A stretch of 64,000 nucleotides of DNA from Collinsella aerofaciens (GCF_015670745.1 NZ_JADPCH010000001.1:1-64000); one strand, 5' to 3'; numbered from the stretch's first letter, positions 21,808 to 26,933 are shown. Notes: generated from the letters alone by a model not told the origin. A program made the numbers and translations.

Positions 21808-21847
21808 GTTTGCCGAGAGACCCGGCGACCCAGTCCCATTCGCACGA

Positions 21848-21886
21848 AAAACGGGCGGCCCGGATGTTTGTCCGAACCGCCCGTTT
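21848..21886 (-). terminator. Rho-independent terminator of the DUF4430 operon
   Basis: Stem aaacgggcgg / ccgcccgttt with a smaller internal stem cgga / tccg. On the minus strand it is followed by TTTTTCG. It lies 21 bases after the stop of the last operon gene. Confidence 0.85.
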
Positions 21887-21906
21887 GGTGCGATATGTCG
21901 AGGTCC

Positions 21907-22824
21907 CTAGCCTGTAACGTAATACCAGACCACGTTGTCGCCATTGGAGAGAACGTAGTTACTGCAGGCCGTCATGGGTTGTGAGCCATTAACGGAATAA
22001 CACCAGCCACTAGTGCCGCCGTGTTCATACTCGGCAAGCCCACCAATTGCCTTCACGTATACGCCGTGATAAAGAGGCGAGTTTTCGGCATTAACAGAAA
22101 GGCCCAGCGCGCACAGGGCATCGTAGACGGTAGCGCCTTCGTTAAAGGTAAAGGTGCCACCAGAGGACACAGGATTGCCCACAGCGCTCGATGTGACCGA
22201 AACCGTCACCGTAACGTAGTTGGACTCCTGTGAGCCGCTCTGGCCGCCCGAGGAGGCGTTTCCACCATTAGAGGATGAGGCTCCATTAGACGACTGGCCA
22301 CCGCCCGAAGAAGCACCACCAGACACCTCGGAAGTATCGCCGGCGCCCGTATTCTGGGCAGCGGATTTATCGCCAGACTTCTTGCCGGCCTGGTCCTCGG
22401 ACTTCTTGCTATCCGAGTTTTTGTCCGATTCCTTGTCCGAAGACTCGGAATCGTCCTTGCCGTCGTTCGAACCCTTGGACTCGTCTTTTGCGTCATTCGA
22501 TGACTTGGAATCCTTGGAACTGGCCTCGCCCGAAGTCGTAGTCGAGCCAGATGCCTTGGTGTCCTTGGTGACGACGCTCTCCCCCGTCACGGTCTGAATG
22601 ATCCAGTCGATGGACCAGGCACCGCTTGTGGAAGGATGGACGAAACCCAGCGAGACGACGATCAGAATGGTGCACGCGGCAGTCAGAACGCCAAGGAGCG
22701 CCTTGCGACGAGAGGCGGACGCCGCCGAAGCGGCGCCCTGTTGCTTTGCATCGTCGAACTGAATGAACGAGGAATCCGGTTGCTTGGAGTCAGCGTCCTT
22801 GGATTTATTGGACACAGCCCTCAC
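21907..22824 (-). CDS. Membrane-anchored DUF4430 (transcobalamin C-terminal-like) protein
   Basis: 305 residues. About 40 cytoplasmic residues are followed by one transmembrane segment (LLGVLTAACTILIVVSLGF, ~43-62). A long linker rich in Ser, Lys, Asp and Gly (~85-195) follows, then a single C-terminal DUF4430 domain (~200-305) with the hallmark GGTSGWCYSVNG and a final VVWYYVTG strand. The domain belongs to the transcobalamin/intrinsic-factor C-terminal superfamily. The GTG start touches the stop of the large surface protein gene, so translation is coupled. Both genes lie downstream of the cobalamin riboswitch. Likely a membrane-side corrinoid-binding partner that receives ligand from the larger protein; direct evidence is lacking. 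Confidence 0.85.
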   Translation of the reverse strand: MRAVSNKSKDADSKQPDSSFIQFDDAKQQGAASAASASRRKALLGVLTAACTILIVVSLGFVHPSTSGAWSIDWIIQTVTGESVVTKDTKASGSTTTSGEASSKDSKSSNDAKDESKGSNDGKDDSESSDKESDKNSDSKKSEDQAGKKSGDKSAAQNTGAGDTSEVSGGASSGGGQSSNGASSSNGGNASSGGQSGSQESNYVTVTVSVTSSAVGNPVSSGGTFTFNEGATVYDALCALGLSVNAENSPLYHGVYVKAIGGLAEYEHGGTSGWCYSVNGSQPMTACSNYVLSNGDNVVWYYVTG

Positions 22825-25800
22825 CTACCGACGTTTGGTGAACACGAACACGCCGACGATGGCGAGACCGATGACGCCGGCGGCAACGCCAACAATGGCG
22901 AGCGGGTTGGTGCCAGTCTCCTGCTCGGAAGCACTAGAGGACTTCTTAGCAGTGGCCGTGGAAGCAGCACCCGTATCGGACTTGGAATCGGACTTCTTGT
23001 CGGACTTGTTTTCCTTGGTCTCGGCCTTGGTCGACACCGTCGTCTTGGTCACCGGCTTCTGACCCGGGGCGATAGCGCCGCCCTTCGAGCCGGAACCAGA
23101 ACCCGCGCCAGCGCCAGCGCCGGAACCAGTACCGGTACCAGAACCGCTGCCGCTATTGGAACCAGCGCCGCCATTACCGCCAGGGTTAACGGCATTCTTG
23201 GTCCACTTGGCATACAACGTCAGGTCGGCCGTCACCGGCGTACTGAAGTCGTACGCCTGCGTGCAAGGCTCATCGGTATACCAACCGCCGAAAGTGTAGC
23301 CATCGCGCATCGGATCGGCCGGCTTGACCAGCTTGCCATCGGACGTAGCAACAAACTTAGTGTCGCAAGCAGACCCGCCGTTGGAATTAAAGGCAACCGT
23401 CCAAGACTCAACGGCCCCAAGCTTGAACAGCGTGCCCGAGTCATTGATGTAGTACAGGTTGCCAGATGCATCGGCAATGACCGGAGAGTCACAGTACTGG
23501 TAATGGCCAGCCGCATCATAAATCTGCGTCGCCTCTGCATCGCCGAGCGTGTAGCGGTACACGCCACCACCGGCAGAGTAGTTGACGTGGTCCTTGTTAT
23601 CCACACTGTTAACGGTGAAGTACACATAGGTCTTGCCGCCCTGAACACTCACCAGCGGAGTAGCAGCAATACCGTTAAATCCGGCCGGTAGTTCTTTACC
23701 GTCAGCAGCGGTGACCATCGTGGTCTTACCGGTCTTCAGATTATAGAGAACCAGAGCAGATCCAGTAGCCGTCTGCCCACCGACAATCAAGTTGTCGCCA
23801 GACACCGCCGGGGCGCTCATGTTATTCGTAAGACCCAGGTCGACCGTCTTCTGCTCGCTCAGCACGCCCTTCGCCGAAAGCGAAATCACATGGAGCTTTC
23901 CGTCGTGCGTCATCTGATAGAAGGTCGAGCCATTGGACGGATCGGCGACGCAGTCAGCGTTCGCAAGGGCGCCGAGCTTCATGGTCGAAACGACATCACC
24001 CGTTGCCTTATCAATGCACTTAAGCGTACCCGCGCTCGTGGGGACGATGGCGTACTTATCCGTCAGGGCAGCGCCAGTCCAATAATAGCCCTCAGCTGCG
24101 TCGATGTTCTGCCAAGAGACTTCGCCTGTGGCGATCTTGATGCGCGTAAAGGAACCGTTGACGTATTTCTTCCCATCAGCCGTGCCTACATAGACGTACT
24201 CGCCGTCCGAAACGACGGTGCAGGAGCTCTGCGTCAAGTCCGTCAAACCAGGCGTCAGCCACTTGCAGATCAGCTTGTCTGCAGTAATCGCCTGGACCGC
24301 GCCGCCGTTGAGCGGAACGATGATAAGGCCATTGGTATAGATCGGACGAGAGGTATAGCTCACCTTGGAGGCAAGCGGCGCAGAGGCAACCTTTTTGCCC
24401 GTGGACGAATCAATCTTAATGAGCTCGTTCTCGGTCGCGATGTACACAAAGCCGTTAGCGATGACAGGCTCGCTGCAGTTGGCATACTGCTGACCAGACT
24501 CGGCCTTCCAATCGAAGGCCCACTTAAGACCGGCGGCCTGCGCAGGCGTCTTGGCATCCGTTACGGTCGAACCGTTGCCACTGTTGCCGTAGCCGGCCCA
24601 CTCGGCATCCCAATCAGGAGTCGTCGCGCTCGGATCCACGACAATCTTGTCGGGATCGGGCATGGGCGAATTATCGGTGGTATAGGCAAGCGTGACCTTA
24701 TCGCCGCTCTTGAGCGTAATCTGATTGGCGCAGAGTAAGGAGGGCTCTCCGTTGATATACAGATGCCAATATTTATTGGTCGCAGCATCCCAACCATACG
24801 GCTTGTGATCGAACGGCGAAGTAATGGAATTCAGGAACCAGTACTCACCACTCTGGGAGCCGTTGTACGCAACGCCCTTGGCCTTCAGAACTGCCTCAAT
24901 AAGGTTCTGGGCCGTGGAGCCTTCGGGCAGAGAAACATTGCTTGCCGTGCCCCAACGCGTATTGTTCCCGTTGACATCGGGACCGATAACATCGGCGGAT
25001 CCAAGCACCTGACCGGGGAGGGCATCGGCGTCAGCACCATACATAAAGGTGACGGCGTCACCCTCCTGGAGCTTGTAGGCACCGGCGCCAACGTCGGCGA
25101 ACTTGCCATTTACGTAGAAGCGCCAATAGCTCTTGGTCGCAGCATCCCAGCCATAGGACTTACCATCAAACGGCGAAGTAATGCCGTTGAGGAACCAGCC
25201 CCAAGACGATTCGCCAGCATCGAGAGTAAGGCCGGTCTGCTCAAGGAGATCCTTGGCAGTAGAGCCTGCCTTGAGACTCGTCTGGCCCGTCGAAGCCCAA
25301 ACCTGCTGCTTGCCGTCCTTGTCCTTGCCAAGCACCTGAACGGAAGCATGGACAGAATCGGACGGCAACTGGTCGCCCCAGCCACCGTAGAACCACGTGA
25401 CGGTATCGCCGGCATGGATGGTGACATTGTCCGCCGTATAGTCACTCGACTTGCCGTTGATAAACAGCTGCCAATAGGTCGAATAATCTTGGGGCGTACC
25501 CAGCTCAACACCGTTGTACTTAAGGCTCAGAATGAAGGAGCCCGCAGCAACGGCGTCAATATCATTCGCCTCAAGCGCGACCTTCGTAAGATCAAGCGCG
25601 CTCGAACCGGACGTCACCACATACTGCGCGTTGTCGACCCAGGTCTGAGTCTTGCCCTGGGCATCGCGACCAATGACGGTCACATTCGCAGCAAGCTGGT
25701 CCTTAACGACAGGGGACGCGCTACCAGCCGTATAGGCAAACTCAATCTTCTGCCCCTGGGTGAGTTTGACGCTGCTCGCGCCAACCGAGGAAGACGCGCC

Positions 25801-26502
25801 GTCGACGAACAGCTGCCAGTAGGCATGAGTCGTCGAATCGTAGGCAAGCGTGCGGCCATCGCTCGGGGAGGTGATGCTTTCGAGGTAGAAACCGTATGCC
25901 GTGTTCGGATCGTACTTCGCCTTGAAGCCCGTCTTCTCCTGCAGCTTAATGAAGGCATCCGCAGCCGTCGCGCCCTCGTCGAGCTTGAGCTGCGTAGGCG
26001 CCACCCAGGTCTGAGCCTTGCCGTCGGCATCGGTTCCGATAATCGAGAACGAGACCTCGATTTGCTTCTTGACGACATCGCCAGTTTCTGTCGGGTTCTC
26101 TGTCTGGACGGCAGCCGCGGCGGCAGATCCTGCTTGGCCAGCGGATGCCGTCGAAGACTGCTCGCTCGTGGCAGGGCTCTCCCCCGTCGCCGAGCCTTCG
26201 TCGCCAGTTGCTGCCTCTGTAGTGGCGGCACTAGCTGCAGGCGCGCTCCCGGAATCCGAAACCTCGGCGCCGCTCTGCTCAGCGGTACCGCCCGCAAGCG
26301 CTGCGTCCTCGCCTGGCGTCGTAGCCTGAGCCACAGCGTCGGTAATGCCCTCGGCACCCTCGGCCCACAGCTGAGCCGGCGTGGTGCCAAAGGCCATCGC
26401 GAAGGCCAGGAATGCCACCAGGCAGCGCTTTGCCACGCCGCGCGCGATTACGCCACGGCGACGAAGCGAGGCACGCTGGCACTCGTCCTCAAACATATCC
26501 AT
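22825..26502 (-). CDS. Large secreted surface protein with four DUF4430 domains, beta-propeller and InlB-type repeat
   Basis: 1225 residues. Signal-like hydrophobic segment at ~25-45 (CLVAFLAFAMAFGTTPAQLWA). A Ser/Ala/Thr/Glu-rich spacer precedes four tandem DUF4430 domains (~145-258, 270-373, 384-489, 501-608), each with a YW-x-(L/F)-x-(V/I)-(N/D)-G core (for example YWRFYVNG). A PQQ-type beta-propeller (~660-1040; GFVYIATENELIKIDSSTG and similar blades) and one Listeria-Bacteroides repeat (GYTFGGWYTDEPCTQAYDF, ~1070) follow. The Gly/Ser-rich tail ends in a transmembrane helix and KRR. The sorting signal is degenerate: EQETG stands where LPxTG is expected. ATG 26502 follows taggag; ATG 26583 is an alternative. 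It is preceded by a cobalamin riboswitch, so surface corrinoid capture is the likely job. Confidence 0.85.
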   Translation of the reverse strand: MDMFEDECQRASLRRRGVIARGVAKRCLVAFLAFAMAFGTTPAQLWAEGAEGITDAVAQATTPGEDAALAGGTAEQSGAEVSDSGSAPAASAATTEAATGDEGSATGESPATSEQSSTASAGQAGSAAAAAVQTENPTETGDVVKKQIEVSFSIIGTDADGKAQTWVAPTQLKLDEGATAADAFIKLQEKTGFKAKYDPNTAYGFYLESITSPSDGRTLAYDSTTHAYWQLFVDGASSSVGASSVKLTQGQKIEFAYTAGSASPVVKDQLAANVTVIGRDAQGKTQTWVDNAQYVVTSGSSALDLTKVALEANDIDAVAAGSFILSLKYNGVELGTPQDYSTYWQLFINGKSSDYTADNVTIHAGDTVTWFYGGWGDQLPSDSVHASVQVLGKDKDGKQQVWASTGQTSLKAGSTAKDLLEQTGLTLDAGESSWGWFLNGITSPFDGKSYGWDAATKSYWRFYVNGKFADVGAGAYKLQEGDAVTFMYGADADALPGQVLGSADVIGPDVNGNNTRWGTASNVSLPEGSTAQNLIEAVLKAKGVAYNGSQSGEYWFLNSITSPFDHKPYGWDAATNKYWHLYINGEPSLLCANQITLKSGDKVTLAYTTDNSPMPDPDKIVVDPSATTPDWDAEWAGYGNSGNGSTVTDAKTPAQAAGLKWAFDWKAESGQQYANCSEPVIANGFVYIATENELIKIDSSTGKKVASAPLASKVSYTSRPIYTNGLIIVPLNGGAVQAITADKLICKWLTPGLTDLTQSSCTVVSDGEYVYVGTADGKKYVNGSFTRIKIATGEVSWQNIDAAEGYYWTGAALTDKYAIVPTSAGTLKCIDKATGDVVSTMKLGALANADCVADPSNGSTFYQMTHDGKLHVISLSAKGVLSEQKTVDLGLTNNMSAPAVSGDNLIVGGQTATGSALVLYNLKTGKTTMVTAADGKELPAGFNGIAATPLVSVQGGKTYVYFTVNSVDNKDHVNYSAGGGVYRYTLGDAEATQIYDAAGHYQYCDSPVIADASGNLYYINDSGTLFKLGAVESWTVAFNSNGGSACDTKFVATSDGKLVKPADPMRDGYTFGGWYTDEPCTQAYDFSTPVTADLTLYAKWTKNAVNPGGNGGAGSNSGSGSGTGTGSGAGAGAGSGSGSKGGAIAPGQKPVTKTTVSTKAETKENKSDKKSDSKSDTGAASTATAKKSSSASEQETGTNPLAIVGVAAGVIGLAIVGVFVFTKRR

Positions 26503-26646
26503 TTGTCTCCTACTGTCTGTACTTGGAGCGTTGCCTTGAAGCTGCCCCACGTCATCGCGCATGTTGCGCTCGAGTTCCCCCATCGGGGTCCCCCTTCCCT
26601 CCAGAGCCCTATGCACACCGGCGGCATATGCCGCAGCCGCATGCAA

Positions 26647-26817
26647 GATGGGAGGCGATCCGACTTAACCTTAACGGCTCAGGCGCGTCGTCCGATCTGC
26701 GACGCAAACATCCCGAGCCAAGAGGAATTACGGTTACTGGTACAGCCGGGGACTTGCACCCCGATTCTCCCAAACGCGCAGGAAAACCGCGCGTTCGTGC
26801 GTCTCCGCACCACCATC
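26647..26817 (-). promoter_or_regulatory. Cobalamin riboswitch controlling the DUF4430 operon
   Basis: On the minus strand the B12-box region reads gggagaatcggggtgcaagt and then ccccggctgtacc (26744-26770). Further core pieces are agtaaccgtaattcc and the 3' end aagtcggatcgcctcc. The closing stem P1 pairs gatgg (26813-26817) with ccatc (26647-26651). A possible promoter is ttgcgt with taataa 16 bases on, at about 26830-26860. It lies 145 bases before the chosen start of the large DUF4430 gene, in the same direction. In this class, ligand binding normally turns downstream genes off. Confidence 0.88.
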
Positions 26818-26933
26818 TAGGCCATCGATTATTACCGTCAAAATGGTATCACGCAAAAGGGCCCCGCACACAGGCGAAGCCCAAGGTAAAAGCTATTGTT
26901 TGCGATAGGAAAATGCGGTGACGGTCGCAGCCT

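Follow-up and report, generated by a model that had tools for sequence, protein, structure and literature searches.

Organization of the operon

The window analyzed here is a 64,000-nucleotide stretch of the genome of Collinsella aerofaciens (G000; 2.11 Mb in 44 contigs). On its minus strand, a cobalamin riboswitch core is followed by a gene for a large surface protein, a small DUF4430 gene and a terminator. The features, with coordinates counted from the first nucleotide of the window, are as follows.

26645..26808, minus strand: cobalamin riboswitch aptamer, AdoCbl-II-like (permissive Rfam match, comparative structure, R1 model and kissing pair)
26581..26648, minus strand: leader after the aptamer, with the kissing partner CUUGC, a conserved hairpin, GGAGGG and the first possible ATG (26583)
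22825..26502, minus strand: large surface protein, 1225 aa, with a signal peptide and a C-terminal membrane anchor (ATG at 26502)
25729..25974, minus strand: DUF4430 domain 1 of the large protein (E = 1.3e-11)
25387..25608, minus strand: DUF4430 domain 2 of the large protein (E = 4.3e-11)
25036..25263, minus strand: DUF4430 domain 3 of the large protein (E = 4.3e-13)
24679..24921, minus strand: DUF4430 domain 4 of the large protein (E = 5.4e-12)
23401..24615, minus strand: propeller of about 400 aa, eight-bladed, PQQ/BamB/YxaL type, a conserved core across Coriobacteriia
23206..23400, minus strand: Listeria-Bacteroides repeat domain (PF09479; E = 6.5e-21)
21907..22824, minus strand: small protein, 305 aa, with an N-terminal membrane anchor, a Ser/Asp/Lys-rich linker and a C-terminal DUF4430 domain
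21910..22218, minus strand: DUF4430 domain of the small protein, with the transcobalamin beta-domain fold
21845..21886, minus strand: intrinsic terminator of the operon (-31.1 kcal/mol, fold z of -5.7, U run after the stem)

A sequence-only reading of this locus had described a 1225-residue surface protein with four tandem DUF4430 domains, a touching second gene for a membrane-anchored protein with a single DUF4430 domain, and a clean terminator after the two genes, and all three parts of that description were borne out. The large protein is exactly 1225 aa when counted from the ATG at 26502, a start preceded by an AGGAG site, although earlier in-frame starts are possible from the sequence at ATG 26583 and TTG 26646. 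The stop codon of the large gene (TAG) is followed directly by the GTG of the small gene, and the stable, U-tailed terminator hairpin closes the operon. As that reading expected, a Pfam search matched DUF4430 (PF14478) in both proteins, with four copies in the large protein (overall E = 6e-46) and one in the small protein (E = 7e-16). All five exceeded the curated cutoff, and they are the only DUF4430 domains in the host genome.

A cobalamin riboswitch core in the leader

The cobalamin riboswitch core reported by the sequence-only reading was upheld, with an Rfam match that lies below threshold and a structure conserved among relatives. Under permissive filters, the AdoCbl-II model (RF01689) matched positions 26654-26770 on the minus strand at 29.1 bits (E = 9.5e-5). 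The gathering score of this model is 36.5, which homologues from outside the family (L151, L153, L173) pass. No cobalamin riboswitch was called in a whole-window Rfam scan at gathering scores, so an annotation pipeline would miss it. The only match to any Rfam model at the gathering score within the window was a Collinsella-1 RNA (RF01700; 38958-39151, minus strand, 156 bits).

To describe the structure comparatively, 19 Collinsella leaders were aligned, and P2, P3, P5, P6, P7, P8, the downstream hairpin and the L5 kissing pair were named by hand. The leader structure was formed in 99.8% of cells, compared with 37-46% when the partners were slid by 1-3 columns. The L5 kissing pair (GCAAG:CUUGY) was conserved and kept in 97.9% of cells. 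In the window, L5 reads GCAAG and its partner CUUGC lies just 3' of the aptamer, completing an AdoCbl-II core with P3, P5, P6, J6/3 and a downstream L5 kissing partner. Two pairs were altered on both sides, one in P7 and one in the hairpin after the aptamer, where the double change is from U-A to C-G. Support from covariation is real but modest, because most of the remaining variation affects only one side of a pair and the sequence used to draw the structure belongs to the aligned set. A covariance model of the whole aptamer (R1) found a single copy in the host genome, at 26645-26808 on the minus strand. GGAGGG lies 3' of the kissing partner, and the second start, with its AGGAG site, follows at 26502. 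The leader is thus a real AdoCbl-II-type cobalamin riboswitch core, for which cobalamin binding and control of expression are predicted; by analogy with the usual behavior of its class, it would act as an OFF switch.

DUF4430 shares the fold of the transcobalamin beta domain

Searching the PDB with the last 85 residues of the small protein as a single sequence (phmmer) returned nothing at E ≤ 1, and a family profile was therefore needed. From an alignment of 39 domains, the DUF4430 profile reached the bacterial DUF4430 structure 3u7z in the PDB (E = 3e-6) and, weakly, human transcobalamin-1 (E = 0.05). An AlphaFold2 model of the domain (pLDDT of 95.9) matched 19 PDB chains in Foldseek at E ≤ 0.001, all of which were either 3u7z or transcobalamin, haptocorrin or intrinsic factor. 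Structural alignment (VIA-align) gave Z scores of 13.4-15.0 to the beta domains of haptocorrin, transcobalamin and intrinsic factor across the whole DUF4430 domain, with the next fold at 8.4. The beta-grasp fold is common to DUF4430 and the transcobalamin beta domain, as in the transcobalamin-like SLBB clade, and the placement of DUF4430 in the transcobalamin/intrinsic-factor superfamily, made earlier from sequence, is confirmed by fold. As the isolated human beta domain binds both cobalamin and cobinamide in crystals (PMC5599065), a lone DUF4430 domain is a plausible binder. Corrinoid binding by the domains of the window is likewise plausible, a shared fold being insufficient proof by itself.

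Conservation with riboswitches and ECF importers in Coriobacteriia

Among 67 genomes of the family, R1 found 60 copies in 59 genomes and DUF4430 was present in 60. Both occurred together in 59 genomes, DUF4430 occurred without R1 in one (G034), and seven had neither (Fisher p = 9e-9, a value that ignores relatedness and is not used here as a probability). An Rfam search around the small DUF4430 genes of 11 family loci returned no cobalamin switch, in flanks that end short of the region 5' of the large gene. In a related genus, an FMN riboswitch (89.9 bits; L062:1160-1353, minus strand) lies close to a DUF4430 gene.

Eight sister loci (L097, L098, L099, L100, L102, L103, L104, L105) have a compact arrangement in which the riboswitch is followed by a small DUF4430 protein, EcfT, a fused double EcfA and an S component; the small protein is, by eye, a lipoprotein in several of them (e.g., L099). 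We then considered 39 loci from other Coriobacteriia families, picked by DUF4430 score and by hand and not by riboswitch or ECF content. A same-strand cobalamin riboswitch lies upstream in 24 of the 39, in 16 cases over the gathering score and in the rest by R1. The 16 over-threshold riboswitches come from three Rfam families (RF00174, RF01482, RF01689), and the use of three cobalamin riboswitch families to head one gene set points to function rather than descent of a single leader. In 33 of the 39 loci, the strand of the DUF4430 gene also encodes an S component some 2.3-3.8 kb downstream, and 21 have both riboswitch and S component. The large DUF4430, small DUF4430 and ECF genes are consecutive on one strand in L147, L148, L149, L151, L164 and L173. 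In a profile search, the only clear solved relative of the S component was CbrT (ECF-CbrT, 6FNP; E = 5.7e-12, with the next match at 0.014). ECF-CbrT is a vitamin B12 transporter whose S component, CbrT, carries cobalamin and cobinamide (PMC5997447).

B12 genes elsewhere in the host genome

Targeted searches of the host genome for B12 genes located the orthologous ECF operon, with 64% identity in the S component, on another contig (C3; L115); it comprises a CbrT-related S component, EcfT and EcfA, adjoining a dihydropteroate-synthase-like gene, as in L105. This operon has no DUF4430 gene and no detectable riboswitch, including by R1, so that surface module and importer lie apart in this clade. 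A second candidate import operon lies on contig C8 (L031, 44-5762, minus strand), divergent from a cobalamin biosynthesis cluster. Its first gene encodes a CbiK-like cobaltochelatase that is exported and carries Tat and lipobox motifs; the genes after it encode a lipoprotein that fits no known family, a BtuF-like protein, a BtuC-like permease and a BtuD-like ATPase. A chelatase outside the membrane is unusual. The C8 permease is the only FecCD permease in the genome. The only protein found with a B12-binding domain was a short MetH.

These operons modify two statements of the sequence-only reading. No BtuCDF-like transporter lies beside the DUF4430 operon, as it said, but the implied lack of a transporter is not borne out elsewhere in the genome, given the ECF-CbrT-like and BtuCD-like operons on C3 and C8. 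The suggestion that the module acts in place of ordinary binding proteins is likewise unsupported or incomplete, as the genome also encodes the BtuF-like lipoprotein of C8.

Proposed function

We propose that the operon probably serves to catch corrinoids at the cell surface, under riboswitch control, for an importer of the ECF-CbrT type, as we infer from its regulation, its fold and the class-wide linkage to CbrT-like ECF importers; together these lend good support to the corrinoid-capture function predicted by the sequence-only reading. When corrinoids are scarce, the operon would be expressed, if the switch has the OFF direction usual for its class. The large wall-spanning protein, with its four transcobalamin-beta-type domains and propeller, would then capture cobalamin, cobinamide or related corrinoids outside the cell, and the small membrane-anchored DUF4430 protein may take over the captured corrinoid and pass it to an ECF importer whose S component is CbrT-like. 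The genes for this putative importer lie on a different contig in this genome; in most relatives they belong to the DUF4430 operon itself. Against corrinoid capture, the need for scavenging is not obvious in a genome with a cobalamin biosynthesis cluster. The window riboswitch scores below the gathering threshold, the genome's own ECF operon is riboswitch-less, no alpha/alpha toroid was detected in the window proteins, and DUF4430 occurs in Lactococcus lactis, where B12 use is not expected; these also count against it.

An alternative that we consider unlikely is that the same module captures corrinoids but delivers them mainly to the BtuFCD-like operon on C8. In its favor, a permease, an ATPase and a binding protein are encoded there, and a weak cobalamin riboswitch match (16 bits) lies upstream of that operon, compared to none detected at the ECF operon of this genome. 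R1, however, finds no riboswitch there, and the C8 leader occurs, nearly unchanged, in 18 close Collinsella genomes only, a uniformity too high for a structure test. The exported CbiK suggests handling of cobalt, tetrapyrrole or haem, and the DUF4430 genes share an operon with ECF genes in 33 of the 39 loci of relatives; both points speak against this alternative.

It is more improbable still that DUF4430 binds some other small molecule, such as a metal complex, a haem breakdown product or another cofactor, with the riboswitch providing a metabolic link only. The nearest solved bacterial DUF4430 structure, 3u7z, was deposited as a putative metal-binding protein, and the domain is found in Lactococcus lactis (our control) and in Methanosarcina. 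Yet the S component linked to DUF4430 is closest to a carrier of cobalamin and cobinamide (PMC5997447), the structural match to cobalamin-binding domains stands well above that to other beta-grasp folds, and cobalamin riboswitches of three Rfam families head the same gene set in different lineages.

The propeller as a conserved core

Besides DUF4430, Pfam finds a propeller fragment and the Listeria-Bacteroides repeat in the large protein. The propeller is its best conserved part, matching at E < 1e-100 in more than twenty Coriobacteriia operons, and it is kept in L158, L162 and L165, whose large proteins are without detected DUF4430. Residues R90, Q129, G176, Y178, W179, P269, N336, N391 and D392, numbered within the segment 23401-24615, are invariant. 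A model of the propeller (pLDDT of 90.7) aligned with eight-bladed propellers of the YxaL/BamB type at Z scores of 33-39; the structural matches listed included YxaL, BamB and designed eight-bladed propellers, and BtuG was not among them. At four Collinsella loci (L022, L024, L026, L027), N-terminal additions that include an atrophied Ig-like domain extend the large protein to 2200-2450 aa, while riboswitch and small gene are unchanged.

The sequence-only reading had suggested that the propeller could attach the cell to host or mucus, an idea unsupported beyond the general habits of propellers, in a domain that forms a conserved core even where no DUF4430 is detected. That the large protein is a host or mucus adhesin, and that B12 only signals to the cell where in the gut it is, is very improbable. 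The protein's size, its variable build across the wall, its Ig-like and Listeria-Bacteroides repeats and an N-terminal part that differs greatly among strains would fit an adhesin, but it matched no known adhesin domain, and its propeller, unlike a typical variable adhesin, is strongly conserved across families together with DUF4430 and ECF genes.

The alpha/alpha toroid is the fold of the other half of transcobalamin, and Pfam did not detect it in the proteins of the window. At three loci, an anchored protein with a weak match to this toroid replaces the propeller protein (L146:973-3072, L166:1255-3594, L172:5602-7752). There, in a riboswitch-headed operon, the toroid-like protein adjoins a DUF4430 protein in a split, transcobalamin-like arrangement. 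The presence of a toroid-like protein in the operon slot of the propeller suggests that the propeller may have a ligand-related job. We speculate, tentatively and with less than even confidence, that the propeller could be a second corrin-binding half that forms a transcobalamin-like clamp with DUF4430, replacing the alpha/alpha toroid. If so, these Gram-positive gut bacteria would have two interchangeable partners, propeller or toroid, for one beta domain.

Relation to known systems

The domain-level idea of scavenging is already published. Burroughs et al. (2007) predicted that Gram-positive surface proteins with transcobalamin-like SLBB domains scavenge B12, and described fusions to propellers, operons that encode a further, paralogous surface protein, and CbiO/CbiQ genes nearby (PMC1796856). 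The operon studied here and its relatives resemble those proteins in their extracellular DUF4430-type domains, propeller fusion, paired paralogous surface protein and CbiO/CbiQ-type neighbors. In contrast to that account, we describe riboswitch control and identify the importer as CbrT-like, and in this genome module and importer lie apart. Key B12 biosynthesis enzymes are usually missing in such bacteria (PMC1796856), whereas this genome has a B12 biosynthesis cluster and looks like an exception. The S component of the linked operons matches CbrT of the ECF-CbrT transporter (6FNP); in L. delbrueckii, CbrT was described with nrdJ, cbrS and pduO (PMC5997447), whereas here the ECF genes accompany DUF4430 capture proteins. 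With human transcobalamin, haptocorrin and intrinsic factor, the window proteins have the beta-domain fold in common; unlike these, the large protein carries several DUF4430 domains per chain and a propeller instead of a detected alpha/alpha toroid. In Bacteroides, surface B12 capture is the task of BtuG/BtuB, a Gram-negative outer-membrane system in which BtuG is a propeller. A role in surface corrinoid capture and the presence of a propeller would be common to both systems, although the propeller of the window aligns best, among the matches listed, with eight-bladed YxaL/BamB types.

Searches of part of the literature returned no paper pairing DUF4430 with a riboswitch, or Coriobacteriia with cobalamin and ECF. 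The riboswitch link, the CbrT identity, the Coriobacteriia-wide conservation, the propeller as conserved core and, in Collinsella, the separation of module and importer appear to be new. Surface capture of scarce corrinoids is much less well understood in Gram-positive gut bacteria than in Bacteroides. The operon offers a defined, riboswitch-marked and widely conserved gene set in Coriobacteriia, whose regulation and gene arrangement link bacterial DUF4430 to an importer of the cobalamin type. With single purified domains, the proposal of Burroughs et al. (2007) that transcobalamin's bacterial relatives scavenge B12 can now be tested directly.
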